A stretch of DNA of 28,543 nt from a virus (IMGVR_UViG_3300026094_000030:1-28543); one strand, 5' to 3'. Shown: positions 3,545-27,267, counted from the first letter of the stretch. Translations and numbers: made by a program. Notes: generated by a model not told the origin, from the sequence alone.

Positions 3545-3557
3545 CATTAAGCCGTTT

Positions 3558-5155: not shown

Positions 5156-5171
5156 GTCAGTCCTTCTCAAT

Positions 5172-5179: not shown

Positions 5180-5187
5180 ACGGCCGA

Positions 5188-5715: not shown

Positions 5716-5728
5716 CTCTGTTTACTCC

Positions 5729-7441: not shown

Positions 7442-7505
7442 GTGCTATTCCTCTTTATCATTGAAACTTATAAGTTGATCATAATACGGTTGTTTTCATT
7501 AATAG

Positions 7506-7513
7506 TATTTATA
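7506..7513 (-). promoter_or_regulatory. T4-type late promoter before gp18
   Basis: Exact TATAAATA on the minus strand in the gp17-gp18 gap. It is embedded in the perfect palindrome TATTTATAAATA (7506-7517), so the plus strand also reads TATAAATA at 7510-7517. Leader to gp18 is about 60 bases. Confidence 0.78.
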
Positions 7514-7527
7514 AATAACGGGATTTC

Positions 7528-9144: not shown

Positions 9145-9145
9145 A

Positions 9146-9529
9146 CTAGTCCTCGCCGTCTTCGTCGTCGCTATCGTCGGTCGGTTGGTCTATAGTCGTT
9201 TTTTCATTGATTCGATCATGCAGCATACGCTGAAGCTCGGTAGTTGAACCGACGTACACATTATTTTGAGTCATTGAGTTCGGAAGCTGTTGAGGATTGT
9301 CGGTTAGACGCACTTCCTTCTTTTTCTTCTGCAGCTCCATGAGTCGATCCGCGATCTCGGCGTTCTGCTTTAGCATATTGGAGAGAACTTCGAACGCGCG
9401 TGGATGCTCGGATTCTCGAGCAAGATCAAGCATCAGATCGATCGCTTCATCACCCTTTTCGGTAAGATTGTAGTACCGAGCGCGAGCGTAGTCGTAGTCG
9501 TCTTGTACTTCATTCTCTTCGTTACTCAT
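9146..9529 (-). CDS. 16: Terminase small subunit gp16
   Basis: The 127-aa product from MSNEENEVQDDYDYARARYY (T4 gp16: 164 aa). It is helical, with a central segment (about residues 30-80) ending in MELQKKKKEV that resembles the oligomerisation helices of small terminases, and an acidic SDDEDGED tail. gp16 helps recognise DNA and stimulates the gp17 ATPase. I chose the start at 9529 because it forms an ATGA overlap with the gp15 stop codon. An in-frame ATG at 9544 would add five residues. It is followed one base later by gp17. Assignment rests on position and T4-like sequence. Confidence 0.9.
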   Translation of the reverse strand: MSNEENEVQDDYDYARARYYNLTEKGDEAIDLMLDLARESEHPRAFEVLSNMLKQNAEIADRLMELQKKKKEVRLTDNPQQLPNSMTQNNVYVGSTTELQRMLHDRINEKTTIDQPTDDSDDEDGED

Positions 9530-10524
9530 GATATTGTGTTCCATATCGAATTAAGATCGGTAATCGTAAAGCTGGCGCCGGACGTCGAACCGGTGACCGT
9601 CTCGCCAGTCTCAAACACATCATCCGGAACACCAACGAGTATAGAATCGGAATTTTCTTCGAGCAGTACGGCCGTTGCTCCTGATGTGGTTCCAGTTACT
9701 GACTCCGACTCCGCAAAAGGACCACCTGATAGACTGTCAAAGAAAAGCTCGAATCGTTCAGGTACTCGTGTATCAAACGAAACGTCGATCGTAAAGTTAT
9801 CGTTCTCGTTTGCATTCGTCGGTGTAATCGTTAAGTTCTGTGTCGAGAACGGTTCTCCGCTTGACGTCATATCAACATCAGAGACGTTAGTTCTCGTCTC
9901 TCGAATAATCTCACCAGAGGAATCCTCCAACGGACCGTAGTATTTAATACGCGTGTCAAACGAGAGTGTATAGATCAGCGATCTTCGAGAGTCGTAATCA
10001 CCCTCGTAGTCGTCGTTCAGATCGACACTTGTCAGAACGAACGGCATGTCTGACTTAAAGTTATTCTCAACCTCATTGACCGTAACAGAGTACTCAGGCT
10101 GAAAGAACGGTAAGATTTGCTCGAGTATCTGCAGTGCATCATCGGTATGCTTAGCCATGATGGAGAGCTGAAACGACAGACGATAGGTCGAGGGATAGAA
10201 CATCGTTTGTCTCGATGTCAACGATGTTCCAGGTATGTTCAGTTTTGTTCCGCGTGTCAGACGTGTTGACTCGTCGTACTCCAGACTCGTGATCTCAAAC
10301 GACATACGCGGCAGCTTAATTGCCAGACGCGGATCGTTTAGGTTCTCTTCCTGACGAATACGTGCAAGAAACTTTTGACGTGGGCCGTACGACAGAGGAA
10401 CCTTGATCTGTTGTAGTACATTACCCGAACCGTCGCGTTTAACGACCGTCAGATTGTTGAACAGTGTACCAAAGACGGCTACCGCACGTCGTGTGTGTTC
10501 GTTATAGAAATGATCGCCGAACAT
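9526..10524 (-). CDS. 15: Proximal tail sheath stabilizer and completion protein gp15
   Basis: The 332-aa product (T4 gp15: 272) begins MFGDHFYNEHTRRAVAVFGT and continues LPLSYGPRQ-like into KFLARIRQEENL, the recognised start of gp15. In T4, gp15 caps the last sheath and tube rings and joins the tail to the neck. Residues 1-210 align by eye with the family. The C-terminal part after about residue 265 has two copies of a beta-type repeat (ESVTGTTSGATAV and ETVTGSTSGASFT) not expected in T4 gp15, which explains the extra length. The start overlaps the gp14 stop codon by one base (TAATG) and its own stop overlaps gp16 (ATGA). Confidence 0.93.
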   Translation of the reverse strand: MFGDHFYNEHTRRAVAVFGTLFNNLTVVKRDGSGNVLQQIKVPLSYGPRQKFLARIRQEENLNDPRLAIKLPRMSFEITSLEYDESTRLTRGTKLNIPGTSLTSRQTMFYPSTYRLSFQLSIMAKHTDDALQILEQILPFFQPEYSVTVNEVENNFKSDMPFVLTSVDLNDDYEGDYDSRRSLIYTLSFDTRIKYYGPLEDSSGEIIRETRTNVSDVDMTSSGEPFSTQNLTITPTNANENDNFTIDVSFDTRVPERFELFFDSLSGGPFAESESVTGTTSGATAVLLEENSDSILVGVPDDVFETGETVTGSTSGASFTITDLNSIWNTIS

Positions 10525-11489
10525 TATGGAAGATTCCCTGGTTCACCGAACGGATTTGTGACTGAGAAATCAATGATCTGATCCCCGTCGATTTCGAACT
10601 GTGTATTGTCTGCAAACTCGTCAGTTTCATCGGGTATATACTTATCACCGATGTCGGCAAGGCTGTACTCCTTCAGAACGGACCAACCGGTATCGGAGTC
10701 ATCATCCAGAAGGAACAAATTACCAAAGTCCGGACCAAATGATCGCAGCTCACCGTCTGTCGATTCGACACCGACAAGTGTCAGATCACCCTCACGATCT
10801 TGTCCGGAGTCTGCCTCCTGAGTCGTAACAAAATCTGCAACTTCCGCTATGACTTCGATCGATTCAGAATCAGAATCTTCGGCACTGATCGTCTGGTATA
10901 CTTGCGTTCCTGGCGCGAATCCGGTGGATCCTCCACTAATTGAGAGTACGGTTTTAGACGCGTGTTCGCGCTCGAACTGATCGACGTTTTCATAACCCGT
11001 GTCAATCTTTTCTGAACTGTACTCGTACAGCTCACACCGCAGCTCATAGATCGGAAGATCGCTCAGCCGATAGAATGGCTTTTCATGTTCGACAAACCTA
11101 ATCTCGAACAATGAGTTTGCAAGAGGAAGATATACTAGGTCGCCTTCGCGTGGTCTTTCTTCTGTCAGATTGTTAACATCGATATCAACGAGTTGCCTAA
11201 ACCTGCGCTTAGCTACTATAAAGGTAGCCTGGTCTCGGATCTCTAGGCCAAACTTAGAGAGAAGAGTGCCTTCGCCCTCAAACCCTTCGGTGTTGGCAAT
11301 ATACATCTCAACGACGTATGCATCAGTGAATCGTGAGTATTCTTCATTAAGAATCTCATCGGTACTTACTTCAGCACGAGGAATGTACACAACATCTTGG
11401 CCGTACATACGAAGACCCTCTATAATAAGATCCTCGTATAGAAACTGCTCAGTACGAACAGACGGAGAAAAGAATACATTCGTTGGCAT
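10524..11489 (-). CDS. 14: Neck protein gp14
   Basis: The 321-aa product (T4 gp14: 256) begins MPTNVFFSPSVRTEQFLYED, followed by LIIEGLRMYGQDVVYIPR, a clear gp14 signature. gp14 and gp13 form the neck rings between portal and tail. The first 185 residues are family-like. The C-terminal third is acidic and low-complexity (for example LLDDDSDTG and DETDEFADN), probably a surface-exposed extension. It starts ten bases after the gp13 stop codon and overlaps the gp15 start by one base, so the neck genes form one translational unit. No frameshift or missing region is visible. Confidence 0.94.
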   Translation of the reverse strand: MPTNVFFSPSVRTEQFLYEDLIIEGLRMYGQDVVYIPRAEVSTDEILNEEYSRFTDAYVVEMYIANTEGFEGEGTLLSKFGLEIRDQATFIVAKRRFRQLVDIDVNNLTEERPREGDLVYLPLANSLFEIRFVEHEKPFYRLSDLPIYELRCELYEYSSEKIDTGYENVDQFEREHASKTVLSISGGSTGFAPGTQVYQTISAEDSDSESIEVIAEVADFVTTQEADSGQDREGDLTLVGVESTDGELRSFGPDFGNLFLLDDDSDTGWSVLKEYSLADIGDKYIPDETDEFADNTQFEIDGDQIIDFSVTNPFGEPGNLP

Positions 11490-11499
11490 TGGTGTTGAC

Positions 11500-12243
11500 C
11501 TAGCCTACGTGGAAGTCGATGGGATACTCATACTTGAGTTGCATCTCTTCCTCGATCTGACGAATTTCTTCCATTGCTTCATCGAACATCTGCTGACCGT
11601 TCAGTGTCACACCACCCGGCAGTTCCATACCTTCAAACTTTTTAAGATTAACACCCCACTGCCGTTTAAGAAGAGCTGTAAGATACCGCTTAAGAAACAT
11701 ATCGTTATAGACGTTAGTGCTTTCTTCTGGATCAACGATACGATACGCCTCAACGATAAGGTACTCGCCGACATTAATGTAGCGATCAAAATCAACGTTC
11801 AGATACAGACGATTCTGATGACGCGAAAACTCAACCTGCGGAGTACCGTTGATCATCATGTCGACAGTATTGATGTACTTTTGAACGTGTACGTAGTTAG
11901 CAAGATTACCCGAGAATCCGAGGTTATACATGTCGTTTAGCGCCATCTGATAACGCGCATCGAACATATTAACCGAGGAGTTCTCGTATGTGAACGGCAG
12001 GATTCGAATGACCGAGATCACTTCTTCGGGAATCGTAATGAACTCGTTGTCGACGTCGTCCTGAGTTAACTCGTGCTTGAACCAATCTCGATATATTGCA
12101 TCGTAATGATACTCGCGATAAAACTGGATAGCCTCGTCGACCCGGTCCTCGATTTGATCCTCATCGACGTTAATCTCAAGTACTGGAGCGCCAAGGTTGC
12201 GAAGGCAGTAGTTTATCAGAGTCTGTCTTGAATTGGGTATCAT
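11500..12243 (-). CDS. 13: Neck protein gp13
   Basis: The 247-aa product (T4 gp13: 309) carries the recognisable opening MIPNSRQTLINYCLRNLGAP then VLEINVDEDQIEDRVDEAIQ and FYREYHYDAIYRDWFKHELT. gp13 caps the portal with gp14 after packaging and provides the tail docking site. It is the first of the uninterrupted run gp13-gp20 and has its own late promoter about 37 bases upstream. It is the first structural gene after the AT-rich accessory island, which ends at the carbamoyltransferase gene. The ribosome site is weak (TGAGAT). Confidence 0.95.
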   Translation of the reverse strand: MIPNSRQTLINYCLRNLGAPVLEINVDEDQIEDRVDEAIQFYREYHYDAIYRDWFKHELTQDDVDNEFITIPEEVISVIRILPFTYENSSVNMFDARYQMALNDMYNLGFSGNLANYVHVQKYINTVDMMINGTPQVEFSRHQNRLYLNVDFDRYINVGEYLIVEAYRIVDPEESTNVYNDMFLKRYLTALLKRQWGVNLKKFEGMELPGGVTLNGQQMFDEAMEEIRQIEEEMQLKYEYPIDFHVG

Positions 12244-12279: not shown

Positions 12280-12287
12280 TATTTATA
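12280..12287 (-). promoter_or_regulatory. T4-type late promoter before gp13
   Basis: Exact TATAAATA on the minus strand in the 59-base gap between the carbamoyltransferase and gp13. It would restart late transcription for the neck, tail and packaging genes independent of the island. Confidence 0.78.
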
Positions 12288-12302: not shown

Positions 12303-13940
12303 CTATTTTATCAAACAACCGGGTTCTTCATTGTATACTGTACCAATCTCTGGAAAATATAGAAAGTCTAAAGAGGAATTCTCTAAAACAAAAAAAGCAT
12401 CTTTAGGAGTCTCACAAAGAGGATCTCCCGCCAAATTCATACTAGTATTAAGAAGAATGCCATGGCCTGATAACTTTTTGAATTGTTTAAGAAGCTTATA
12501 TATGTGTCCATCTTTTTTTGTGACTGTTTGTATACGACAAGTATTGTCGACATGAGTAACTCCTGGTATTAAGTTACTAATCACCGGAAATGCAACTGTC
12601 ATAAAAGGACTTGAAGTCATACATGATGTGTCAAAGTATAAGTGTGCGTCTTCTTGTAAGACAACCGCGGCAAATGGTCTATACCACTCTCGATTTTTAA
12701 TTTCATTGACAATATTTTTTGCATTAGGATTCAATGCATTAAAAAGAATTGACCGATTTCCTAATGCACGTTGTCCAGCTTCTGCTTTACCTTGATATAT
12801 TCCAATGGAGTGATTTGAGTACAATAGTTCTGCAACATTTTTTGTATTTATTTTTATACCTTCATCTTTTGCAATACTGTAGTTAATACCATGAAATGAT
12901 GTTGTTTTGTTATGGGATAATTTTGGATGATACCACTTACGTAATCTATTATAAAGATCCATAGCTGCACCTATAGAGTTTCCGCTATCACCACACAAAG
13001 GTTCAAAGTAAAAGTTAATATTAGGGAATCTCTTAAGTAGATAATGGTTAGCAACAACATTCATTGCATATCCACCACTTAAACAAACATTATTAGTTGG
13101 TACAGTTTCTATATACTCTTCTATAAGATCTCCAACAGCCTCTTGAGTTTGATGCTGTACTGCATAACAAAAATTAGCGTATTTTTTATAATTTGTCTCA
13201 GTAATTTCCTTTGCGGGATTGAGCAAAAAATCTATAATATCAGCTCTACAAAAAAAACCATTGTTTAGAGTATTTGTTTCTTTATACATTCCATTAAATT
13301 GTTGATCGTACTCGCCGTAAGATGAAAGACCCATCGGCTTACCACAATCCAATTCAGTATTGCCAGTCACAATCGCAGCCAATTCGTATACCTGGCCTAT
13401 TCCTATCTTATTCTTAAAATCATACTTAGAAAGATTTATTGACTGATCAACTTCGGTTGGTGATTCATTCAAATAACCTCTATAATTTAGATTTCGAGTA
13501 AGATTTTTGTAAAGAAGTTCTTGTTTATTTTTGCTAAAAAAGTAAATAGATTCTGCTTCTACGAGTGTTTTAGCAGGATCTTCTTCTGATAACTTAACTG
13601 CGGAACCCATCCCATCAATAGAAAGCACTAAGGCGTTGTGAAATGCACTATTATAATACGCAAGTGATGCGTGACAAATATGATGTTTGTTATAATAATT
13701 ATAAATTGGAGGAAAATTGTTTAAAGAAAACTGATCACATATTAAAGAATATACATTTAAGTTAGCCGCAATCGCGTCTATCCTATAACGATTAATTATA
13801 TTTGTTAAAATATCTATATGTATGTTTTTATCGTGCTTAATACCGGTTAATCGTTCTGTTAAAAAGTATTTTACAATACGCCCATTCTTAATCAGACATA
13901 TTGAAGAATCGTGACCGGCATGTATACCTAGTATATTCAT
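12303..13940 (-). CDS. Carbamoyltransferase (NodU/CmcH/TobZ-type)
   Basis: The 545-aa product from MNILGIHAGHDSSICLI has the two-domain layout of O-carbamoyltransferases. The N-terminal Kae1-like domain shows GIHAGHDSS (5-13), the metal-binding-type KHHICHAS motif near residue 85 and SIDGMGSA. The C-terminal YrdC-like domain shows the signature EAGQRALGNRSILFNALNP and NTSMNLAGDPLCETP. Known relatives move a carbamoyl group from carbamoyl phosphate, using ATP, to a hydroxyl of a sugar or antibiotic, and in some phages probably to modified bases. The ATG at 13940 forms an ATGA overlap with the epimerase stop codon. A TTG at 13952 is possible but less likely. It is strongly AT-rich compared with gp13. 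The acceptor is unknown, probably a sugar made by the neighbours. Confidence 0.92.
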   Translation of the reverse strand: MNILGIHAGHDSSICLIKNGRIVKYFLTERLTGIKHDKNIHIDILTNIINRYRIDAIAANLNVYSLICDQFSLNNFPPIYNYYNKHHICHASLAYYNSAFHNALVLSIDGMGSAVKLSEEDPAKTLVEAESIYFFSKNKQELLYKNLTRNLNYRGYLNESPTEVDQSINLSKYDFKNKIGIGQVYELAAIVTGNTELDCGKPMGLSSYGEYDQQFNGMYKETNTLNNGFFCRADIIDFLLNPAKEITETNYKKYANFCYAVQHQTQEAVGDLIEEYIETVPTNNVCLSGGYAMNVVANHYLLKRFPNINFYFEPLCGDSGNSIGAAMDLYNRLRKWYHPKLSHNKTTSFHGINYSIAKDEGIKINTKNVAELLYSNHSIGIYQGKAEAGQRALGNRSILFNALNPNAKNIVNEIKNREWYRPFAAVVLQEDAHLYFDTSCMTSSPFMTVAFPVISNLIPGVTHVDNTCRIQTVTKKDGHIYKLLKQFKKLSGHGILLNTSMNLAGDPLCETPKDAFFVLENSSLDFLYFPEIGTVYNEEPGCLIK

Positions 13941-14914
13941 AAAGTTAAACAATGATTATTTGTGTAATACTGACTAAAAGTATTGGTTCTTGAAAAATCT
14001 ATAAGTTCTTCAATACCGTACAATAAATCATATGATGTTTCAAAATCTAGTACTTGCTTTGCCTTTTCAAAACTTACTTTATAATTTCGAGGATCTGTGT
14101 TTTTTGCGTTATGTACAATTTTAAGATTATAATTACAATCGTAGATATTATTCAGTATGTCTCTTTTAGTATAGTTATTTATGTTTGAGCCGCCATTAAA
14201 CACTTCAAAGTAAGTATCTTTTTTAGAAGCGGTCAGCACTTTATCAATAAGAATGCCAAAGTCATTTACGTGGCAGTAAGGTCTCCATGTATTTTCATCA
14301 TATACAGATATCTCTTGATTGTAAACTGTCTTATAAACGAACTCATTTATTAATAAGTCTAACCTAGTTCTAGCGCTTACCCCAAATGCAGTAGCAAACC
14401 TAAGAATGGTGCCGGTGTAGTCTACAATGTTCTTTTTAGACAACATTAGTTTTTCAGCAGCTACCTTGGCTTTTGCATACTCTCCCAGAGGATTAAGATC
14501 AAATTCTTCGGTTGCATACTTATCAGAATCAACTATACCATAGTTTGAGCACGTTGAAATAAATATTACATTTTCAAGCCCATAACCATCTAATGAATTA
14601 ATAATTGCTTGTACGCCATCATAGTTGGTTTGTTCCGCCAACTTAGGATTTTTTTGTATGACTTGATTTCCGACAAGACCTCCAAGGATAATAACGTCAG
14701 TAATGTCATCTATGTTATTTAAAACATTATCTGTTACATTCATGTCTACAGCAACGGTTTCGATACTAAGATGAGATATTAATTCTTGATGACCATAAAT
14801 AAAGTTGTCTAAGATACGAACACCATATCCTAAAGACTTGAGTGTTGCTGCTATAGCGGAACCAACATATCCTCCGCCACCTATCAGGAGTACTTTCCTA
14901 TCGCGTGTTGCCAT
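13937..14914 (-). CDS. NAD-dependent nucleotide-sugar epimerase/dehydratase (extended SDR)
   Basis: The 325-aa product has the NAD-binding glycine motif GGGGYVGS (12-19) after the strand KVLLI. It has the SDR active site with ISTCSNYG (119-126) and YAKAK (Tyr146, Lys150), and a substrate segment TILRFATAFG. This is the extended SDR type that includes UDP-glucose 4-epimerase and dTDP-glucose 4,6-dehydratase. The exact substrate cannot be read. The length is normal. The start overlaps the upstream dehydrogenase by 17 bases and the stop overlaps the carbamoyltransferase start, so the three genes are translationally coupled and should act on one sugar pathway. Confidence 0.9.
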   Translation of the reverse strand: MATRDRKVLLIGGGGYVGSAIAATLKSLGYGVRILDNFIYGHQELISHLSIETVAVDMNVTDNVLNNIDDITDVIILGGLVGNQVIQKNPKLAEQTNYDGVQAIINSLDGYGLENVIFISTCSNYGIVDSDKYATEEFDLNPLGEYAKAKVAAEKLMLSKKNIVDYTGTILRFATAFGVSARTRLDLLINEFVYKTVYNQEISVYDENTWRPYCHVNDFGILIDKVLTASKKDTYFEVFNGGSNINNYTKRDILNNIYDCNYNLKIVHNAKNTDPRNYKVSFEKAKQVLDFETSYDLLYGIEELIDFSRTNTFSQYYTNNHCLTL

Positions 14915-16124
14915 AATGAATTACTTTACTAGCTGAGCTCTGAATCTTGCGCCAAGGGTCGACTATTACACTATTAGCGGGGATGGTACAATAAATCTCG
15001 TCTTTGTGATTTTGCATTCCTGTTGTATAATTATATGTTACTTCAGCAGAGTGAGCCATGAGGAATACACCAGGTTCAGTCGGTTGATAATCGTCTCCAG
15101 TATAAGGATCAATGTATATCGGACTATGACCTAACTCATTACAAAAGTGGCTGATCAAAAGACTATAACTTCCATCTAGGTAGGGTACCTTTGGCTTATA
15201 TGCCTTACCGTGAATATAAATCTGAAAGTCGTTTTCCTCAGCGTGTTTTACCAGTTCTTTTGCAAGATTCTTTGCCTGGACCTCTCGAGAATTCATAATA
15301 GAATCAAATAAGTCATAACCAAGATCAAGTTCTTGAGCAAGATAACGAAGAGCAATATTGTCTCGTGGATGGCAGGCTCCACCATCACCCATACCAGCGG
15401 TCATGTATTGATGGCCCGTAATTCGAAGATTTGATTTTGATAATGCACCGGTCACCACATCGACGTCAATATGACCTAGACCATTTGCAACGTCCTGCAT
15501 CATATTTACCAGAGAAATCTTTGTTGAGATCCAAGTATTGTAAAAGATCTTAATGCACTCACACTCGTCCCATGTGCCAACCTCAAAACGTGGTTCGTTA
15601 TGAATCACTGTCTCATATAGATCAATAAGTTCCTTCGCATCGCCAGTAAGACTACCGTCCTCGGTTCCGATCATAATCATTTCGGGGTTTACCATATCCC
15701 ACGCAACAGATCCCATTGCAATAAGATATGGATTATACGCGAACCGAGTGTTATTGATCAGCGGAACGAACTCTCGTCGTGTGGTACCTGGCAATACTGT
15801 GGAGATCAGAACCAAGAGTTGATTCTTATTCATATACCGATCAGCTTTAGTGATGGTGTCCTTGACTATTGAGTAATCAAAGTCCTTGGGTTCAAGGTTT
15901 GTGATCGGGACCGAACCATCATATCTTTCATCATGAGGTGTGGGTACTGCAATGAATACAACATCACAGTCCTTTACACATTCTTGAATAGAGGACTTTA
16001 CGTTAACTATATCAGAACTGACATCTGTAATATCATACCCATTTACAGTATGACCAGCTCGACCAAACTCTTCTGCACAAGGAAGCCCAAGCTTTCCTAA
16101 TCCAATAAAGCCAATTGTACTCAT
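14898..16124 (-). CDS. UDP-glucose/GDP-mannose 6-dehydrogenase family protein
   Basis: The 408-aa product begins STIGFIGLGKLGLPCAEEFG, a Rossmann NAD site. It has the VFIAVPTPHDE strand (56-66), STVLPGTT (108-115), the conserved Lys192 in ECIKIFYNTW, and the catalytic-Cys loop GMGDGGACHPRDN (Cys251). GKAYKP (306-311) marks the UDP-binding C-terminal domain. These enzymes oxidise C6 of a nucleotide sugar twice, usually making UDP-glucuronate. The length is typical. Immediately upstream is a clean sigma70-like promoter, making this the first gene of a three-gene sugar operon with the epimerase and carbamoyltransferase. All key residues are present, so it is probably active. Confidence 0.93.
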   Translation of the reverse strand: MSTIGFIGLGKLGLPCAEEFGRAGHTVNGYDITDVSSDIVNVKSSIQECVKDCDVVFIAVPTPHDERYDGSVPITNLEPKDFDYSIVKDTITKADRYMNKNQLLVLISTVLPGTTRREFVPLINNTRFAYNPYLIAMGSVAWDMVNPEMIMIGTEDGSLTGDAKELIDLYETVIHNEPRFEVGTWDECECIKIFYNTWISTKISLVNMMQDVANGLGHIDVDVVTGALSKSNLRITGHQYMTAGMGDGGACHPRDNIALRYLAQELDLGYDLFDSIMNSREVQAKNLAKELVKHAEENDFQIYIHGKAYKPKVPYLDGSYSLLISHFCNELGHSPIYIDPYTGDDYQPTEPGVFLMAHSAEVTYNYTTGMQNHKDEIYCTIPANSVIVDPWRKIQSSASKVIHYGNTR

Positions 16125-16160
16125 AGCGAATTCCTACTTATTAACAAACTGACAATATAT

Positions 16161-16190
16161 ATTATACCACAATTTGACTTATATTGTAAA
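16161..16190 (-). promoter_or_regulatory. Sigma70-like promoter before the sugar dehydrogenase operon
   Basis: On the minus strand TTTACA (16190-16185), an 18-base spacer and a perfect TATAAT (16166-16161). It begins one base after the amidinotransferase stop codon, and the ATG at 16124 is 36 bases beyond the -10 box. It resembles the host-type early promoters of T4-like phages, not the TATAAATA late type. Confidence 0.7.
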
Positions 16191-17168
16191 TCACTCTCTG
16201 ATCAAATCAAGTGTAACACAGTGAAAGCATCCTCCTAGTGTACGTGCATGACGCATAGGCAACATAACGCAATCGATTCCGTATTTTTCTAGTTCTTTTC
16301 TTAGTGCATCCTGTCTCTCTTCAAGAACAACTAGATCTGGAGAAAGAGAGAACAGATTCATACTCACCCACTTGCTCGCGTTGTTATATCCTGGATAGTG
16401 ACCGATATCGGTAGGTTCAGGGCACCAGATCGCATCCCAAGATTGTAGAGGTTTTGGAAGTTGATCTTTCGACTTGATTCTATCTGGGTTGAGAAGCATT
16501 AGGCCTTCTCTAAGAAGCGCAATTGTGCTATCCAAATGCATATAACTGTACACTCCCTCGATCGTCCATACCTTTTTATCTATACCAATCAACTCTTGGA
16601 GATACTCGGCACCCCTCCTATTGCCAGAGTTACTTACAAGATAAAATAGATCATCGTTTGCCCTAAGGATATTTGCAGCGTCAAAGCAAGGCTCGATTTC
16701 ATTAAGAGCAAGCGTATCAGGATCGGCGATACATGCCTCATTATACAACTCATCGGATAACTTAGGATATGACTTGATATATGTTGTATCGAGATTATTA
16801 AAATGGTGCTCGATGTACTGCTCCTCTCCGCGCCTAGATCTTAAGGGCTGTGGTGTCGAAAGTATGATATCATTATACACCAGCACTCCATCGCGAGGAC
16901 AGTAATTATAGTACCCTGGGTTTACTCCTTCTTTTGGCCTTAGAACTTCTATACCCTGTTGGATTAAAAAATTACTAAAGACCTCTAAGTCAAAGTTAGC
17001 CTCATCAATTACCTTATCAGGGTACTTTCCAGACTTTATTGTTGCAGCGTCTTCTACATCTGCGTAATTTACGGTTCTAAGGCTTTTATCAACACGAGGA
17101 ACTTTTGCATTTGTTGCATCGCCAACGATTACTGATTTTAAAGAATCCCACTCATTAATTGATAACAT
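16191..17168 (-). CDS. Glycine amidinotransferase-like enzyme
   Basis: The 325-aa product resembles L-arginine:glycine amidinotransferase. It has NYCPRDG (88-94), EPCFDAANILR with Asp163, YMHLDSTI with His211, LLNPDR, SKWVSMN, and the final LGGCFHCVTLDLIR with the presumed catalytic Cys317. Asp, His and Cys are the amidinotransferase triad, all in order. The enzyme moves an amidino group from arginine to an amine. It is somewhat shorter than the animal enzyme but spans the whole core. The gene starts three bases after the upstream glycosyltransferase stop codon. The acceptor could be glycine or an amino sugar. Some marine phages carry relatives, from my general knowledge, and the role is unknown. 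Confidence 0.9.
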   Translation of the reverse strand: MLSINEWDSLKSVIVGDATNAKVPRVDKSLRTVNYADVEDAATIKSGKYPDKVIDEANFDLEVFSNFLIQQGIEVLRPKEGVNPGYYNYCPRDGVLVYNDIILSTPQPLRSRRGEEQYIEHHFNNLDTTYIKSYPKLSDELYNEACIADPDTLALNEIEPCFDAANILRANDDLFYLVSNSGNRRGAEYLQELIGIDKKVWTIEGVYSYMHLDSTIALLREGLMLLNPDRIKSKDQLPKPLQSWDAIWCPEPTDIGHYPGYNNASKWVSMNLFSLSPDLVVLEERQDALRKELEKYGIDCVMLPMRHARTLGGCFHCVTLDLIRE

Positions 17169-17171
17169 AAT

Positions 17172-18023
17172 TTATACTATCTGTGACGGGTTAACTTGTA
17201 GAGTCATTAAATGATCATATGGCTTATCATGTATAAAAAAATCATCGAGTGTAAAAAGGTCTCGTTCGTTTCTCCACCATTGATGACATGTTTTTTGTAT
17301 GGGTTCAAATGCATCTTTTGAAGAATTACCGCCGTCATCTATACACAGGGAAGCTTCTGTAGTAAATAAAGGCAAAGTATATATACAGTTTAATGAACCC
17401 AATGTTACATCAACATTATAATAATCAATCAAAGGTATTCCGTATATATTTAACAACCTTTTTTTATAATAAATTATTTGCCCTCTTTTGTTAAGATACA
17501 TATTTACTATTTTTTTAACCATAGATCTTTTAAATAACATGGCCCCAAATGTGAAATCTTTGTTAGGGTGTAAGAAAAATCTTATCATACGGTCCGAATC
17601 ATTATTGAGTTTAACTGCCTCCCAATCTGCTGGAAGATTATCCATAAAATACTTCCAATCGAAGTGCCAATAGTCTATAAGACTCAGATCATAGTCGTCT
17701 TCCATTATTAATAAATATTTTTCATCTGTATTATTAAGCCACCTTTTCATAAATTCAATATGATTAAGAAAATTCGCAGCATACATAAAACATCTATCTG
17801 GATTTATGTAGTGGCTTAGCTGGTCGTATTCCTCAAGTTTTCCTGCCCATTCATAAAAATTCTTTTCCGTGTAACAACTCTGTGATATTCTTTCAAATGT
17901 TATACGATATTTTTTAAACTGGCACTCCATAAAATCTCTTCGAACGTGATCACTATCAAGATTAAAGTAATATACCTTTGGCATACCTCTAGTCTTTAGT
18001 TTGTTTTTCATTTTATTCAGCAT
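17172..18023 (-). CDS. GT25-like glycosyltransferase, copy 2
   Basis: The 283-aa product looks like a family 25 (LPS-type) glycosyltransferase. It has the opening VYYFNLDSDHVRRDFMECQF (17-36), a positional RISQS motif near residue 45, and IMEDDYDLSL (107-116) supplying the acidic metal-binding motif, followed by DYWHFDW. The upstream gene is a clear paralog with the same motifs. Both share a 55-bp identical DNA stretch covering the EDDYD motif. No signal peptide or membrane segment is seen, so it acts in the cytosol. It lies ten bases after copy 1 and three before the amidinotransferase. Donor and acceptor are unknown. Confidence 0.82.
   Translation of the reverse strand: MLNKMKNKLKTRGMPKVYYFNLDSDHVRRDFMECQFKKYRITFERISQSCYTEKNFYEWAGKLEEYDQLSHYINPDRCFMYAANFLNHIEFMKRWLNNTDEKYLLIMEDDYDLSLIDYWHFDWKYFMDNLPADWEAVKLNNDSDRMIRFFLHPNKDFTFGAMLFKRSMVKKIVNMYLNKRGQIIYYKKRLLNIYGIPLIDYYNVDVTLGSLNCIYTLPLFTTEASLCIDDGGNSSKDAFEPIQKTCHQWWRNERDLFTLDDFFIHDKPYDHLMTLQVNPSQIV
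17653..17707. repeat. 55-bp exact direct repeat, copy 1
   Basis: Identical to 18518-18572 and flanked by divergent sequence. It lies inside the second GT25-like gene and codes for the segment around MEDDYDLSLIDYWHFDW. Confidence 0.9.
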
Positions 18024-18033
18024 AATTTTTAGA

Positions 18034-18876
18034 TTAAAATGAAAGCGCCCTTGATTCGTAGTTATAAAGGTACTCCGTCATATCAGTATCATTTGATTTA
18101 TTCATAGTAAAAAAATCATTTAGGGAAAAAACATCTCTTTTATTCTTCCACCAGTAATGATATATGTATCTATTTGTTTGGTGTCTTTTATATATGTGGT
18201 ATGCATTATCTTGCTGAAAGAAAGCTGTGTTCGTAGTAATTAAAGGAAGAGTGTAGTTTTTACCTACATGGTTTATGGACATGTCGACAGAGAGCGTATT
18301 ATCTTCGATACCGTAACACGGAAATCCTAAGGACATTATTTTATCACCACAAAAATATAAGTCTAATATTTTTGCTACGTGTTTTCTATTGATCAGAGTA
18401 GGTCCAAAGTTAAATGATTGATAGTCTTTGTGACTAAGGAAAAACTGCACACGCTCAAAGTGTTCGTAACCCAATTGAACAGTATCCCAGTCAAATGGTA
18501 ATCTTGACATTAAGTAATTCCAATCGAAGTGCCAATAGTCTATAAGACTCAGATCATAGTCGTCTTCCATTAAAATTATATAGTCTTCATTTGATCTCTT
18601 GTACCATTCCTTAAGAAAAACCATATGACTTACAAAGTTTGCCAACACACGAGGCGACATACCTTGATCGTTTTCAATAACTAAAGATCTATCTTGTAAA
18701 TAATCAGTCCATTCATTAACTTTACTGGCATTAAATCTATTACCTGAAATACGTGTGTAATCTATTCCATAATATTTAAATTGCTCCTCCATATATTTTC
18801 GGCGCTCAACTTCCTCGTCCATATTAAAGTAGTAAACATGAGGGAAGCCAGATAACTTATTATTAAGATCCATCAT
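18034..18876 (-). CDS. GT25-like glycosyltransferase, copy 1
   Basis: The 280-aa product has the same plan as the next gene: VYYFNMDEEVERRKYMEEQF (14-33), YTRISGNRF (40-48) and ILMEDDYDLSL (101-111), with the acidic metal-binding cluster at 104-108, then DYWHFDW. This fits GT25 (LgtB/LOB1-type) transferases that extend surface sugars. Overall identity to copy 2 looks moderate except around the EDDYD block, which is DNA-identical for 55 bp. The ATG overlaps the aminotransferase end by 14 bases. A second Met follows at codon 2. The C-terminal half (from about 170) differs more and may set acceptor choice. Confidence 0.83.
   Translation of the reverse strand: MMDLNNKLSGFPHVYYFNMDEEVERRKYMEEQFKYYGIDYTRISGNRFNASKVNEWTDYLQDRSLVIENDQGMSPRVLANFVSHMVFLKEWYKRSNEDYIILMEDDYDLSLIDYWHFDWNYLMSRLPFDWDTVQLGYEHFERVQFFLSHKDYQSFNFGPTLINRKHVAKILDLYFCGDKIMSLGFPCYGIEDNTLSVDMSINHVGKNYTLPLITTNTAFFQQDNAYHIYKRHQTNRYIYHYWWKNKRDVFSLNDFFTMNKSNDTDMTEYLYNYESRALSF
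18518..18572. repeat. 55-bp exact direct repeat, copy 2
   Basis: Identical to 17653-17707, 865 bases away, inside the first GT25-like gene. The mismatches begin immediately on both sides. Confidence 0.9.
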
Positions 18877-19465
18877 TAAAAACCTTCATTCTTGAAAGAT
18901 CTGGATAATCTGAATACGACCAGTCTTTTGGATCGCAATCCTTTACTTGATAGAATCTTTTTATACCAAGCTCTGCTGATTCTGGAGTCATATAATAATG
19001 ATACCCTATATGCGATACGTTTTGTTCGACCCATGGGGTATTAAGATCTCGACCATCATAACTCATTGTTTTTAACTTTAGGTAATCATCTCGGCTATCG
19101 GTAAGAATCATTCCACCGCGACCGATTGGCAGGTGTTTCTTAAACTGAAAGCTCAGACACATAAGAGAGCCTGGAATATATGAGTTTCTTTTCCATAGAA
19201 CTGCTGCATCAACAACTCGAGTGTCAGAAAGAAAATAATATGAATCCCAGTCTTCTGTATTCCAGTTCCAATCTATTCCTAGTTTCATCAATGTCATTGG
19301 AATAGAAAGATATGTACGTTTTGGGCAAGTTGTCTTACGTACTAAATCGTATCGTAGGGAGAGCTCTATTGCATGAGTGCAAGAATCTGAGGCAATACCG
19401 TATCTTGCACCAAAGTAATTTGCAACTAATGTCTCAAACTGTGTTACGGTGTCAAAAGAAGCCAT
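18863..19465 (-). CDS. Shortened DegT/DnrJ/EryC1/StrS-type aminotransferase
   Basis: The 200-aa product matches only the large PLP-binding domain of the DegT sugar aminotransferases, whose full length is usually about 360-400 aa. Visible are ASDSCTHAIELSL (25-37), VVDAAVLW with the PLP-contact Asp86, SFQFKKHLPIGRGGMILTD (105-123) with the presumed Schiff-base Lys110, and GYHYYMTPESAELGIKR. The C-terminal small domain is missing, and the gene ends in an overlap with the GT25 start, so this is not a frameshift. I chose the ATG at 19465, because the open frame back to 19507 overlaps the upstream stop codon. Activity is uncertain. Confidence 0.75.
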   Translation of the reverse strand: MASFDTVTQFETLVANYFGARYGIASDSCTHAIELSLRYDLVRKTTCPKRTYLSIPMTLMKLGIDWNWNTEDWDSYYFLSDTRVVDAAVLWKRNSYIPGSLMCLSFQFKKHLPIGRGGMILTDSRDDYLKLKTMSYDGRDLNTPWVEQNVSHIGYHYYMTPESAELGIKRFYQVKDCDPKDWSYSDYPDLSRMKVFNDGS

Positions 19466-19481
19466 TATAATTATATGAATC

Positions 19482-20081
19482 TTATGCCACAGTAATACTA
19501 AACTCAACCGTTCTTAGTTCATCATCTTCACTATAGTCATCCATCTTATGTTCGATATGCGAGGGCAGAATCACCAAATCACCGGTCTTTACTTGTTTAA
19601 TACAGTATTCGCGAAGAGGGCTGTCGCCGTTGTGATGAAATGTTTTCTTAGGAGAGGCAGGATTTTTAATAATCAAGTTACCAGCAGGTCCGTTGGCTCT
19701 AAGAAATAAATATCCTATAAAGTGTTGCGAATCGTCGGATACAAAGTTTTTCTTAGGATTTGAACCATACGCATAGATCGAAGAATCCATTAGATGGACC
19801 TGGTGTCTCTGTGTATCGGCACGTACACCTATAGCGTACTGAAGGATAGTATCTTTCAGTCTATTTGAAACTGCGTCAAAGATCTCATTGTTAAAAAGAA
19901 TATCTTTATTAATAGGAGAGCTTGACCAAGTATCGTCAGAAGTTCCAAGCCTACCCCAACAATCAGAATTAAGTTCAATAAGACGGTCGACTTCTTTATT
20001 CAAGATGTCAACATAGTTCTCGCGATCGTTTTCAAAGTATGAAGAATGAAAGATTGGAATATTTAAAGAATTGTCGATCAT
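19482..20081 (-). CDS. 2OG-Fe(II) oxygenase-like protein
   Basis: The 199-aa product resembles phage 2-oxoglutarate/iron oxygenases of the prolyl-hydroxylase-like type. The C-terminal half has a core-barrel pattern HFIGYLFLRANGPAGNLII (120-138), then GDLVILPSHIEHKM with the likely distal iron His178, and DDELRTVEFSI with the 2OG-binding-type Arg190. The proximal HxD/HxH iron motif is not clear. The aligned area reads VSDDSQ, so the metal site may be altered. GAGGT lies six bases before the start. It sits between the uncharacterised paralogs and the aminotransferase. Tentative role: hydroxylation of a sugar or protein in the island pathway. Confidence 0.6.
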   Translation of the reverse strand: MIDNSLNIPIFHSSYFENDRENYVDILNKEVDRLIELNSDCWGRLGTSDDTWSSSPINKDILFNNEIFDAVSNRLKDTILQYAIGVRADTQRHQVHLMDSSIYAYGSNPKKNFVSDDSQHFIGYLFLRANGPAGNLIIKNPASPKKTFHHNGDSPLREYCIKQVKTGDLVILPSHIEHKMDDYSEDDELRTVEFSITVA

Positions 20082-20133
20082 GATTTACCTCAAAACTGTA
20101 TTATCTATTACAGGTACTTGGTTAATAATTTTC

Positions 20134-20862
20134 TTACATGTGTTTTTTTCGTGTATAATAAGAACTATTAATTGAAAAATTGACGGCCGAACATGAACTC
20201 ACTTTATCAAACCACTCTGGATCATAGTGGCATTTGATGTCGACCTTTTTATCTGTCATAGGAGTCATATTTATCATAGGAACCCCCGCCTCAAGATACA
20301 GTACATCGCGCACGTCTGAGTTCATAAAGGTGTGAATATTTGTACTCGTTCCACCTCTAAAGTTACGAAAGGCTGTAGGTAACATAAGCCTGTTTAATAA
20401 ATCTGGATTATTCCACATTGCAGGTGACCAGTTCCATAGTAGGTCTCTCTTTTTGGTTGAGTACCCGTACCATGGGCTATGAAACTTAAAATGAATAAGA
20501 GAATTGGAGGTTAAGAACTTTCCTCCTTGGCTTGGATCATGGGATGAGATACCAGACCCATCTGCGCACACAGTCGAGTATCCATGTTCGTTTACTCGAT
20601 CATCTACAATAATCTCACAGCTCGTCCATAGAGGCATAGTATAGCTGTACCGAAAAACATCCATGAACCCTGGACATCGCTTAAGTGTATTACGTCGATT
20701 TGCTTTTGTCTTAAAAATATTGTTTTCGTATTCTTGTGGTATATCCTTCCACCACTGAGGAATGAACTTATTTGACTTATCTATAGGAAAGTATTCATAC
20801 GCTTTATAGTCATATGTTATAAAATCTACGGTAAGTTTTTTTGATCTTGAAAATATTAACAT
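20134..20862 (-). CDS. Uncharacterised protein, paralog A (242 aa)
   Basis: I do not recognise a function. The protein has KFIPQWWKDIPQEYE (32-46), TLKRCPGFMDVFRYSYTMPLW (a Cys/Pro-rich block around 59-80) and LEAGVPMINMTPM near residue 195. The next gene upstream has the same three blocks (CIPEYYKKL, RCVPFMEAITAGYTIPLW, LEKGTPLVQVFPF), so they are paralogs. Trp/Tyr/Pro are enriched and the fold looks like a jelly-roll or small-ligand-binding beta domain, which is only a guess. A sigma70-like promoter ends just nine bases before the ATG, so the message may be nearly leaderless. The 199-aa oxygenase-like gene follows. A role in the glycan island is inferred from context. Confidence 0.72.
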   Translation of the reverse strand: MLIFSRSKKLTVDFITYDYKAYEYFPIDKSNKFIPQWWKDIPQEYENNIFKTKANRRNTLKRCPGFMDVFRYSYTMPLWTSCEIIVDDRVNEHGYSTVCADGSGISSHDPSQGGKFLTSNSLIHFKFHSPWYGYSTKKRDLLWNWSPAMWNNPDLLNRLMLPTAFRNFRGGTSTNIHTFMNSDVRDVLYLEAGVPMINMTPMTDKKVDIKCHYDPEWFDKVSSCSAVNFSINSSYYTRKKHM

Positions 20863-20871
20863 ACTAAAGCC

Positions 20872-20900
20872 ATTATATCAGGTTGAGCAACAATTGTAAA
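20872..20900 (-). promoter_or_regulatory. Sigma70-like promoter before the island gene at 20862
   Basis: On the minus strand TTTACA (20900-20895), a 17-base spacer and TATAAT (20877-20872). The ATG at 20862 follows only nine bases after the -10 box, so RNA start and translation start almost coincide. Confidence 0.72.
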
Positions 20901-20924
20901 CAGTAGCAGGAGAGGTATGTATAA

Positions 20925-21608
20925 TTATTTCTTGCGCTTATGCCAAAAATATTTTCGATATCCGTGTTTTAGAACAGTCCCAAGTATATTTCCTGTTTTT
21001 CTTTCTCGTGTATGATCAATTTTTTTGATCTGATACTTATTAAAGTCATACCTCACAAAAGGAAATACCTGCACAAGAGGTGTACCCTTTTCTAGAAAGA
21101 ACTCGCCATCTCCGCCGGTCCAAATAAAGGGAAAGTTAATCTGAGTATAGTATGTATCAGTGTCGACTATACCATCAACAAGCTTAAATCGCGTCTCAAA
21201 GTGGTTCATCGGTGTTGTAAAAAGACACGAGACACCCGGTGGTGTCTCTATGATCCAAGGATTGATAAACTTTAAAAGATCCTTGCCATACGACAAATGA
21301 CTCGCCGGATGGTCGTCGAGTTGATGATACGGGTGCTGGCCTAAACCTTCGGTCATAGGGAAGTTATCTGGGAAAGTAAGCTCAATTTCTCCATTTTCAG
21401 CAACAACAAAGAGATCGGACCACAACGGAATTGTGTAACCTGCAGTAATTGCTTCCATAAAAGGGACACAGCGCTTAGCTGTGCCGCTCCGTGGATCGCT
21501 GCTCGATTCAACGTTCAGTTTTTTATAATACTCAGGTATGCACTTCCCAGACTTTACTGGTTTAGGAAACGCGCCCATAAACGATTCATCGATATAGAAT
21601 GTAATCAT
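20925..21608 (-). CDS. Uncharacterised protein, paralog B (227 aa)
   Basis: The 227-aa product shares with the 242-aa neighbour the motifs CIPEYYKKL (23-31), a KRCVPFMEAITAGYTIPLW block (45-63) and LEKGTPLVQVFPFVRYD (~172-188). It ends in a strongly basic HKRKK tail. I remember this type as uncharacterised proteins of marine T4-like phages, but cannot name a family with confidence. It lies 15 bases after the tail-assembly-chaperone-like gene and may be read through from the fibre block. Paralog A has its own promoter. No catalytic triad or membrane segment was found. Confidence 0.72.
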   Translation of the reverse strand: MITFYIDESFMGAFPKPVKSGKCIPEYYKKLNVESSSDPRSGTAKRCVPFMEAITAGYTIPLWSDLFVVAENGEIELTFPDNFPMTEGLGQHPYHQLDDHPASHLSYGKDLLKFINPWIIETPPGVSCLFTTPMNHFETRFKLVDGIVDTDTYYTQINFPFIWTGGDGEFFLEKGTPLVQVFPFVRYDFNKYQIKKIDHTRERKTGNILGTVLKHGYRKYFWHKRKK

Positions 21609-21623: not shown

Positions 21624-22091
21624 CTATGGAGTTGTCGTTGGTTCTTCGGGCCAAACAACATTGCCCGGGAATCCGTCTTGTTCCGTAATATCGCGAAGTG
21701 CTTGACGATAGTCTGCCCACTCTTGCGGAACAGGATCACCTATATCAAGATATTTAATAACAATCCAGTCGGTTGATGTAAGGAGAACATCTCTATCAGA
21801 TCGATCCTTCTCTTCTTCAGAAGGCTCATTATCTAGAGCTTCTTGTACTGCCTCTTCATCTCGACGATCAATCTCGGTCTGACGATCGTTCATAACCGCA
21901 TCAAACTGAGAGAAGTCGGTGATCTCTTCGTTATGATCGTTGTACTCAACTTCACCGTGGTCTCCGTACCACTGAACGGCATGAATCGACGAGTCAAGAT
22001 TTGTCGTAGGAACTTTCTCTACATTTTCTCCGTTAAGATTTACATCAACGGTTCCGTCATCGTTATTAATAATGGTGATTCTATCACTCAT
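21624..22091 (-). CDS. Tail assembly chaperone-like protein (Phage_tail_APC type)
   Basis: The 155-aa product has an N-terminal acidic, DNA-loop-like half and a C-terminal domain with the pattern RDVLLTSTDWIVIKYLDIGD, then VPQEWADYRQALRDITEQDG and FPGNVVWPEEP. That LLxxTDW...WxxYRQALRDI pattern is typical of the short phage tail-assembly chaperone family that often accompanies tail-fibre genes. It overlaps the previous stop codon by eight bases. It probably helps fold or attach fibre proteins in the host cytosol. The assignment rests on the C-terminal pattern, and the N-terminal half is not recognised. Confidence 0.82.
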   Translation of the reverse strand: MSDRITIINNDDGTVDVNLNGENVEKVPTTNLDSSIHAVQWYGDHGEVEYNDHNEEITDFSQFDAVMNDRQTEIDRRDEEAVQEALDNEPSEEEKDRSDRDVLLTSTDWIVIKYLDIGDPVPQEWADYRQALRDITEQDGFPGNVVWPEEPTTTP

Positions 22092-22422
22092 CTTCGTTGT
22101 CTCCGGTTTTTATGTCAAAGTATTTTTGAACGGGTTGATCGCTAGACTGAACCTGTGCCATTGCCCTCATAAGATTCTGTGAAGTATGGTTCGCATCTAC
22201 CATCTCGTTTCTAAACGACTCAACTGCCGCTCCGGTCTGACGACTCTGTTGTGAGTTCTCAATTAAGAGCATCGGCAGCCAAGCGATCGCACATCCGTAA
22301 TTATCAACTTCTTTGCCTGTATTCGGATCGGTACCACGTATCTGTGTATACCACGCGCACTCAAACTTTTGACACGGCTTAAACTTATTTAGAGGACAAT
22401 TGTCCTTGATCTCAATCGTCAT
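22084..22422 (-). CDS. Cys-containing small virion-region protein, conserved hypothetical (112 aa)
   Basis: The 112-aa product opens MTIEIKDNCPLNKFKPCQKF. It has four cysteines (9, 17, 22, 44), a short hydrophobic stretch (CAIAWLPMLLI, 44-54), then a long helical region (55-105). The Cys pattern could bind zinc or an Fe-S cluster, but no standard spacing is evident. I recall relatives in marine T4-like phages near fibre genes, not proven here. It starts eight bases after the collar-like gene and overlaps the next gene by eight bases, so it is co-translated in the tail-fibre block. Function unknown. Confidence 0.72.
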   Translation of the reverse strand: MTIEIKDNCPLNKFKPCQKFECAWYTQIRGTDPNTGKEVDNYGCAIAWLPMLLIENSQQSRQTGAAVESFRNEMVDANHTSQNLMRAMAQVQSSDQPVQKYFDIKTGDNEDE

Positions 22423-22430
22423 ATTATATA

Positions 22431-23027
22431 TCAGTCCTTCTGAGCGATAATAAAGTCTTGGTATTTTACATTAATGGATGCCGAAGCAGATGATAATGAT
22501 GCAGAGAGATCACCTCTACTTGGGTTGCCAGAAATTGATCCTGATAGGTTATGCGCCGCATTGTGACCGTGAGATCCAGATCCGCCGGTGGTGCCAGTAT
22601 TAAAACGGTTGCCGACTCCCCTTGGATCGTTGGATCTAAGCTGGTCTGATGCGGCTTGAGCATTTCCGCCTCTAGGGGCGTCATGACCATGTGATGGTAT
22701 TTGACTCGTGCTTAGTGTAGTAGATCCAATGTTCACATTACCAGAGATGCTTGTTGAAAGATTACCCGTTCCTGGATCGCCGCTCAGCGATACAGAACCA
22801 GAAACTGATGGTGATCCGAGAGCTGATGAGAAACCAGATGAACCGCCCGATCCAGGAGTACCACTTACGACTCGAAGAGCTGAGTCGTCGATCGATGTGT
22901 CCTTGGTCCAACCCGTCGGTGCACTTGAGTTATGAAAGAGAAGCCGGGTCCCGGACGGAAGAGGATTTGTTGCGATAACAGAGTTGTCCGGAAACTGAAC
23001 ACCCGTTGCTGTAAGTGATGTTGCCAT
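22431..23027 (-). CDS. Tail collar/fibre-tip-like protein with HGH motifs (198 aa)
   Basis: The 198-aa product starts with a short N-terminal adaptor (SLTATGVQFPDNSVI). It has the collar-like LPSGTRLLFHNSSAPTGWTK (23-42) and ALRVVSG (50-56). The remainder is Gly/Ser-rich beta structure with IPSHGHDAP (113-115 HGH) and GSHGHNAAHN (153-155), resembling iron-binding HxH motifs of T4 gp37/gp12-type fibres. It ends NVKYQDFIIAQKD, a common collar C-terminus. It is probably a trimeric receptor-binding or collar component. It follows one base after the S74 protein upstream. A late-promoter-like TATAAATA is inside that upstream gene. Confidence 0.85.
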   Translation of the reverse strand: MATSLTATGVQFPDNSVIATNPLPSGTRLLFHNSSAPTGWTKDTSIDDSALRVVSGTPGSGGSSGFSSALGSPSVSGSVSLSGDPGTGNLSTSISGNVNIGSTTLSTSQIPSHGHDAPRGGNAQAASDQLRSNDPRGVGNRFNTGTTGGSGSHGHNAAHNLSGSISGNPSRGDLSASLSSASASINVKYQDFIIAQKD

Positions 23028-23810
23028 CTATGAATTCCTTTGTTGTGTAATTAAACTATCAACTTTTTCGTTAAGCTCTTTAATTGCTGCAAACGCCAGA
23101 GAGCATAACTTAACATAATCAACAGCCAACTCACCGTTCTCTCGCTCTCTCACCGCTAGAGGAAACGCTTCTTGTACATCCTGAGCAATGACACCAAAGT
23201 CATTCTTTTGAAGAAAGTATGAGTCTTCCCCGCCTTTTCTATTTATATATTCATCGCTCCAATCAAAGGTCTTACCTCCGACGGTCTCAACAATACTCAG
23301 CGCGTTCTTAATATCCTGAATGTTTTCTTTGTTACGAACATCCGACGAGAAGTTGGATACGATATCACCCGTGGCTCGAATGTCACCGTTTGATGCAGGT
23401 GCAGGTGTATTCACACCGAGTGAGTCGACCTGAATCGTTCCCGATATTGTCTGATCGGTGTTGTTTCTTGCAACGGTACCATCGACTGAAAATGTAACAT
23501 TGGATGAACCGTTAAATGCAGAGCCGGATAATCCATCACCCGTACTTACAGATTTTGTAAGAGTGACATCGGTCCCCGTAATTGATCCACCCGTAATCGA
23601 GACGTTATTTGACTCTTGCTCGCCCATCGACGCAATATCAAGATTCGTCTTAGCCGCAGCCGTATCGGTCAGATCGCTGAGATTGTTCGATGCCTCGAGC
23701 TTACTCGTAGTAATCGAGATAAAGTTATTATCAATCTCAGCGTTGGTGAGTGGTGCATCCTTTACGGTTGCACCACCACCGGCCGTCTCTCTTGTTGTAA
23801 TCGATGTCAT
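23028..23810 (-). CDS. Fibre protein with C-terminal S74 self-cleaving chaperone domain, copy 2
   Basis: The 260-aa product has a short N-terminal fibre part (TTRETAGGGATVKDAPLTNA, residues 5-24) and a beta-repeat spacer. Its C-terminal peptidase S74 (intramolecular chaperone) domain starts around residue 156. The SDxRxK active-site pattern is SDVRNK (Ser156, Lys161), followed by GVIAQDVQEAFP. Such domains help trimerise the fibre and are then cut off in cis. It is the second S74 protein in a row and has an exact late promoter in the tail of the upstream gene. The N-terminal region is short, suggesting a side or accessory fibre. Confidence 0.88.
   Translation of the reverse strand: MTSITTRETAGGGATVKDAPLTNAEIDNNFISITTSKLEASNNLSDLTDTAAAKTNLDIASMGEQESNNVSITGGSITGTDVTLTKSVSTGDGLSGSAFNGSSNVTFSVDGTVARNNTDQTISGTIQVDSLGVNTPAPASNGDIRATGDIVSNFSSDVRNKENIQDIKNALSIVETVGGKTFDWSDEYINRKGGEDSYFLQKNDFGVIAQDVQEAFPLAVRERENGELAVDYVKLCSLAFAAIKELNEKVDSLITQQRNS
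23240..23247 (-). promoter_or_regulatory. Late-promoter-like box inside the 260-aa S74 gene
   Basis: TATAAATA on the minus strand, about 213 bases before the collar-like gene. It lies inside coding sequence (the residues Tyr-Ile-Asn), so it may be coincidental. Confidence 0.35.
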
Positions 23811-23831
23811 CTATTATTTCCTTATCGATTC

Positions 23832-26114: not shown

Positions 26115-26126
26115 TTTTTATATTCC

Positions 26127-26780: not shown

Positions 26781-26807
26781 TATACCTTTATTCTAAAAAG
26801 AATGATA

Positions 26808-26834
26808 CACGATAGCGCGATAAAAATCGCCGTG
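26808..26834 (-). other. Hairpin in the leader of the 217-aa fibre gene
   Basis: Inner stem GCGAT/ATCGC with a 4-base loop (26817-26830) and outer pairs CACG/CGTG. It is downstream of the late promoter, so it would be in the leader. On the minus strand a T-rich run follows, so a weak terminator is also possible. Confidence 0.35.
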
Positions 26835-26852
26835 TGTTTATCAATCTAAGTT

Positions 26853-26860
26853 TATTTATA
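26853..26860 (-). promoter_or_regulatory. T4-type late promoter before the 217-aa fibre gene
   Basis: Exact TATAAATA on the minus strand in the 88-base gap before the ATG at 26780. Leader is about 65 bases. Confidence 0.75.
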
Positions 26861-26868
26861 TATTTTTA

Positions 26869-27237: not shown

Positions 27238-27267
27238 CAGTTCAACCTCTGTTGTTTATGGCAATTG

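Follow-up and report, generated by a model that had tools for sequence, protein, structure and literature searches.

What is a block of sugar-modifying enzymes doing between the tail fibre genes and the neck genes of a T4-like phage? We addressed this question in a 28,543-base T4-like phage fragment from IMG/VR (IMGVR_UViG_3300026094_000030:1-28543; "the window" below means this whole stretch), in which all named genes lie on the minus strand. Genes gp21 to gp13 occupy 1730-12243 and the fibre genes 21624-28089; the block lies in between, flanked by the genes for the neck protein gp13 (11500..12243; phrog_211 E 3e-44) and the tail fibre assembly protein Tfa (21624..22091; phrog_4912 E 3e-24). 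A preliminary description of this DNA had counted ten adjacent genes between the fibre genes and gp13; we find ten same-strand ORFs at 12303-21608, and Pfam, PHROG and PDB matches show its family calls to be right in the main. GenBank phages gave a near match for just one 114-base piece of the window. A defence-system reading was set aside, as PADLOC returned no defence match, and so was a wcaG or other RNA element, with no Rfam match in the window or in five relatives (L002, L003, L007, L009 and L071). A wcaG RNA is annotated upstream of the carbamoyltransferase gene of the cultured Synechococcus phage S-SCSM2R, a cyanophage.

The answer that we favour, and to which we give an even chance, is that the block is a horizontally exchangeable decoration cassette whose GT25 enzymes put a guanidino/amino sugar on the tail fibres. 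Its first gene encodes a DUF6065 protein (paralogue b, 20134..20862; phrog_7084 E 3e-15) with a conserved promoter in front, and is followed by a 2OG-Fe(II) oxygenase-like gene (19482..20081; phrog_81 E 2e-7, PF13759 below cut-off), a single-domain ("mini") DegT/DnrJ aminotransferase gene (AmTr, 18863..19465) and two GT25 genes. The PF01755 cut-off of 24 bits is exceeded by GT25a only (18034..18876; 28.9 bits, phrog_2835 E 1e-38), and the GT25-like b protein (17172..18023) is assigned by its match to the same phrog_2835 (E 3e-27); it is an extra copy, in that L003 and L071 have one GT25 gene at this site and the window two. Beyond a StrB1-like amidinotransferase gene (16191..17168) lies a gene for a nucleotide-sugar 6-dehydrogenase (UGDH-like, 14898..16124; PF03721 and PF00984, with PDB matches to GDP-mannose and UDP-glucose dehydrogenases), which has the N-terminal and central domains and the catalytic Cys, in GGACHPRDN, that define this family; its substrate is uncertain, because the C-terminal UDP-binding domain (PF03720) went undetected, though enough residues remain for one. 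Next comes an NAD-dependent nucleotide-sugar epimerase/dehydratase (13937..14914; PF01370 E 5e-27), whose best PDB match is a putative sugar-nucleotide epimerase/dehydratase (6vo6, E 4e-37), and last a NodU/TobZ-type O-carbamoyltransferase (CarbT, 12303..13952; true start likely the ATG at 13940), which carries both Carbam_trans_N and Carbam_trans_C, the mark of its family, and matches phrog_1601 (E 2e-126) and PDB TobZ/GdmN. In a distant relative (L086:1501-4250), the UGDH gene is broken exactly at the catalytic Cys by intein-like halves, of which the N-half starts with Cys and the C-half ends in VVHN ahead of CHPRDN. A distinct, endonuclease-like ORF of 273 aa separates the two halves, and the arrangement looks like a "fractured gene" in which a sugar dehydrogenase contains a split intein.

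Two of these enzymes form a constant pair. The amidinotransferase gets no match in a Pfam search and aligns over its whole length with the inosamine-phosphate amidinotransferase of PDB 1bwd (E 2e-69), StrB1 being the closest solved structure. Its Asp-His-Cys triad (D163/H211/C317) is invariant in nine aligned phage proteins, and no bacterial relative that we found exceeds 46% identity. By its catalytic residues and whole-length match, the window protein belongs with the StrB1-like pentein-fold amidinotransferases, for which inosamine phosphate is a putative substrate; a literature search on phage amidinotransferases found nothing useful. The mini AmTr (PF01041; the listed ORF, 18863-19507, includes a TTG extension) measures 194-212 aa in all 82 phage copies, as against about 360-390 aa for the two-domain DegT chain. 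Across nine aligned proteins, all of them without a C-terminal domain, the PLP lysine K111, D87, CTHA and the G(R)xG motif are invariant. In Foldseek, its structural model (pLDDT 88) aligns with ArnB-type enzymes (ArnB/GDP-perosamine synthase, TMq 0.6-0.66, TMt 0.37) over their large domain only; on length and model, we file it as a DegT-like, single-domain protein. The constant length, the kept motifs and a pN/pS of 0.26-0.31 led us to reject a decayed aminotransferase.

Relatives of the mini AmTr number at least 581 in viral contigs, against one in 386 cyanobacterial genomes, where it lies near GDP-mannose dehydratase-like genes, and none in 369 gammaproteobacterial genomes in a search run without a positive control. 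The cyanobacterial genome is small and low in GC, and its mini AmTr (L320, G742:C1:1208500-1228400) also has as a neighbour a small protein similar to the cupin-like 136-aa protein of L007. In one contig (L097:3597-4198) the AmTr gene runs in two frames, by frameshift or sequencing error. We examined 80 AmTr loci, 45 after dereplication, and found as partners the amidinotransferase (33), a 174-aa, Asp/Asn-hydroxylase-like 2OG protein (28), UGDH (23), GT25 (13), CarbT (12) and fibre-tip genes (8); these fractions are no population estimates, since the loci were chosen by similarity to the query. The module thus recurs near the same fibre-tip genes in 8 of 45 loci, for example in L202, L213, L220 and L250 in the order tip, o22084, 2OG, three or four GT25 genes, AmTr, 2OG, amidinotransferase and CarbT.

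We read the same site in relatives by anchoring on gp13 and probing with window proteins. Between DUF6065 paralogue a (20925..21608) and gp13, L009 has no genes and L002 has a shorter set, DUF6065b and 2OG; L003 (the same contig as L082, with L083 alike) has DUF6065b, 2OG, AmTr, GT25, amidinotransferase, UGDH, the 174-aa 2OG, a GT9-like gene and DUF6165, and L071 and L084 share the L003-type core as far as the 174-aa 2OG, beyond which they carry a sulfotransferase and one more DUF6065. In contigs that start within the cassette, its gp13-side end is visible: L006 closes the core with the 174-aa 2OG, L007 and L008 carry a different UGDH plus another epimerase (with the cupin-like 136-aa protein as well in L007), and in L011 a glycosyltransferase-like set is joined by DUF6165 and a 2OG enzyme. 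In L098, CarbT stands between DUF6065a and DUF6065b. The distal genes thus differ in L003, L006, L007, L011, L084 and L098, and they do so among close relatives, in that L004, L006 and L007 show about 92% identity in gp13 DNA, yet L006 and L007, at 91.6%, have different cassettes. The two edges are constant: the gp13 late promoter, TATAAATAGTAGTA, is common to nearly all relatives, and DUF6065a to those whose contig extends that far. With constant edges and contents that vary or are absent, this is a swap site, its borders being the DUF6065a/DUF6065b junction and the gp13 late promoter, with L009 as the empty site; comparing the site in related phages, a check proposed earlier, therefore bore out variable presence. 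Sulfation may be an alternative decoration, as other alleles carry sulfotransferase-like genes (L084:8376-9224 and L007:184-1011). Nearby, L005 has an extra 185-aa AT-rich ORF between gp13 and gp14 (1845-2402), which gives the neck region a second insertion point, and gp14 has about 410 aa in L012 (5569-6801) and L013 (3866-5104) against 321 in the window, the extra sequence lying in its C-terminal half.

These comparisons also correct the limits first drawn for the block: 12303-20862 is the swappable cassette, and DUF6065a belongs with the fibre-tip module, to which we assign it because it is kept in cassette-less L009 and moves with the fibre tip. The whole block o22431-o22084-Tfa-DUF6065a recurs on a podovirus-like backbone (contig L102/L269; 73, 93, 74 and 69% identity), apparently a host-recognition module that has passed from one phage type to another, and DUF6065 genes lie among tail- or fibre-like genes in L104, L105 and L107. 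The AF2 model of DUF6065a (pTM 0.77) matches dUTPases by VIA (Z 10.2; among the matches listed, all 50 are dUTPases), and stretches like motifs III and IV are in register with those of dUTPase at weak significance (hhalign E 0.07); the predicted fold is dUTPase-like, for which dUTP hydrolysis and a structural role are both candidates. A DUF6065 sequence search of the PDB gave nothing meaningful, and our literature search found no paper naming DUF6065. In haloviruses, DUF6065 has thymidylate synthase or ribonucleotide reductase genes in its vicinity.

The cassette had been called AT-richer than the genes on both sides, which our GC and codon-usage profile confirms clearly for the core genes and more mildly for the fibre block. 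Sliding GC is 0.31-0.41 in the block and 0.44-0.53 on the core side; GC3 is 0.31 in nine cassette genes against 0.55 in nine core genes (Mann-Whitney p=4e-4), with single genes from CarbT to DUF6065b at 0.23-0.36, core head, neck and tail genes at 0.43-0.68 and fibre genes intermediate at 0.30-0.47. Leave-one-out codon-usage log-odds are negative in 9/9 cassette genes and positive in all core genes. This composition is like that of a wider low-GC T4-like pool, as in more distant relatives (51-66% protein identity in gp13) the GC on either side of gp13 is mostly 0.32-0.41. The proposal that the cassette was acquired later is right in so far as the locus is a swap site; as a recent event, it fails for the shared DUF6065b-to-UGDH part, whose synonymous saturation against L003 equals that of gp13/gp14 and therefore speaks for no recent arrival in this lineage. 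The epimerase and CarbT genes are among the most AT-rich, and close relatives have other genes at their position. In the cassette genes tested, pN/pS is 0.11-0.31, which shows purifying selection.

Early expression had been proposed from two sigma70-like promoters and the lack of late boxes. On the coding strand, the exact late box TATAAATA occurs at 26860, 23868, 23247, 12287, 7513, 3544 and 1068, i.e., four and three times in the two flanks against 0.1 expected in each from dinucleotide shuffles, a genuine enrichment on each side; the box at 12280..12287, that of gp13, marks the distal cassette edge. None lies in 12303-21608, where about 1.0 would be expected, and this absence (P=0.39) was rejected as stand-alone evidence. 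Both promoters are present, with TG before the -10: an extended -10 element before DUF6065b (20872..20900, minus strand, TTTACA-17-TATAAT) and a second before UGDH (16161..16190, minus strand, TTTACA-18-TATAAT). Promoter-like sites in total number 53 against 49.9 by chance, and scores as high as these two arose in 0/2000 shuffled gaps. The gap before DUF6065b keeps promoter matches of 10 to 11.5 of 12.5 in L002, L003, L071, L097 and L098 (10.5 was reached in 0.7% of shuffled gaps and 11.5 in 0/2000), and this promoter is absent at the empty site of L009; its chance origin was rejected. In the gap before UGDH, the window alone has a strong promoter; L003, L006 and L071 score 8-9 there and keep just the -10, and for this one we keep chance origin open. 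Early expression is plausible, and we infer it from these elements only; late read-through from the fibre genes is also possible, as all genes lie on one strand. Thus, of the earlier interpretation, a compositionally distinct, variably present glycan-modification cassette inside the late region, with at least one conserved sigma70-like promoter, stands; the membership of DUF6065a does not, and the second promoter is not conserved.

From these enzymes, a decorated glycan is a plausible product. The dehydrogenase (by oxidation) and the epimerase would shape a nucleotide sugar, the mini AmTr would introduce an amino group, and the StrB1-like enzyme would convert it to guanidino with arginine as donor; the 2OG oxygenase may hydroxylate sugar or acceptor, the GT25 enzymes would transfer the sugar, and the carbamoyltransferase would cap a hydroxyl. 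The likeliest acceptor would be the phage's own fibre or fibre tip, encoded next door, with the cassette swapped among sister phages like an antigenic type, and enzymes made from its own host-type promoter could accumulate ahead of the late fibre proteins. Against a fibre target, 37 of 45 AmTr loci have no same-strand fibre-tip homologue in the DNA read, most fibre-tip loci have no AmTr module, and homologues of the 2OG and CarbT enzymes are known in DNA-modification pathways.

The cyanobacterial mini AmTr among GDP-mannose dehydratase genes also counts against it and would suit cell-surface polysaccharide, the region being a likely polysaccharide one, which favours a fair, if improbable, rival: that the enzymes change host LPS or capsule during infection, for example to block superinfection. 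GT25 is a family of LPS glycosyltransferases and a conserved host-type promoter would fit early action; however, we recognised no flippase, polymerase or ligase gene in the cassette, which lies inside the late structural region adjoining the fibre tip, a placement with likes in other phages. It is unlikely that the carbamoyltransferase, the glycosyltransferases and the 2OG oxygenase have 5-hydroxymethyl-pyrimidines of the phage DNA as their target. A TobZ-like phage 5hmC carbamoyltransferase makes 5-carbamoyloxymethyl-dC (PMC8670742), and the window CarbT is a distant homologue of it (24%); that enzyme is, however, accompanied by thymidylate synthase homologues, and none is in the window cassette. 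Full-length thymidylate synthase occurs in 3 of 11 IMG/VR records with the module (partial in a fourth), and the dUTPase-like fold and halovirus neighbours of DUF6065 point the same way, but the complete S-SCSM2R (244 kb, with amidinotransferase and CarbT) has neither a thymidylate synthase match nor a Tet/JBP match over cut-off, and the sugar-nucleotide dehydrogenase and epimerase, the fibre-side place and the allele swapping better suit surface decoration. Very unlikely is a pathway to a guanidino compound or cofactor transferred to no polymer: StrB1 and relatives make free small molecules and some AmTr-amidinotransferase loci hold B12-radical-SAM proteins in place of GT25, but two GT25 enzymes are encoded in the window, and many loci have GT25 genes adjoining AmTr.

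Glycosylation genes in phages are already a known kind; new here are a swap locus adjacent to the fibre tip, a constant mini-aminotransferase/amidinotransferase pair and a conserved internal promoter. If the fibre-decoration reading is true, phages diversify adhesin chemistry, beyond sequence, by exchanging whole sugar pathways among close relatives, and the pair, widespread and conserved in phages, is open to direct assay. We put forward tentatively, as a doubtful but broader claim, that T4-like phages have a glycan allele locus, hypervariable and expressed early, that is firmly joined to the fibre-tip module and decorates fibres with guanidinylated, carbamoylated sugars via a new single-domain PLP aminotransferase class, as a phage counterpart of bacterial O-antigen diversity.

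Among known systems, the StsC/StrB1 steps of streptomycin biosynthesis likewise pair a DegT aminotransferase with an inosamine-type amidinotransferase, whereas the phage AmTr is without the C-terminal domain and the phage has UGDH, not inositol enzymes. Campylobacter phage CP220 has an amidinotransferase (27%) adjoining two nucleotide-diphospho-sugar transferase genes, but is much more distant, with radical SAM enzymes replacing the aminotransferase and UGDH. The phage 5hmC carbamoyltransferase (PMC8670742) shares the TobZ/NodU superfamily with the window CarbT, whose cassette differs in having no thymidylate synthase/dCMP hydroxymethylase partner. We found no demonstration of function for the decoration operons of S-SCSM2R (PQ898602), which shares with the window the amidinotransferase (60%), mini aminotransferase (55%), CarbT (46%), GT25 genes and 2OG enzymes. 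Unlike the window, it has these in two operons, one with AmTr, amidinotransferase, GT25 and 2OG and the other with CarbT beside two epimerases and GT10, the radical SAM and GT10 genes going beyond the window set, and it offers a cultured phage in which the decoration could be sought.
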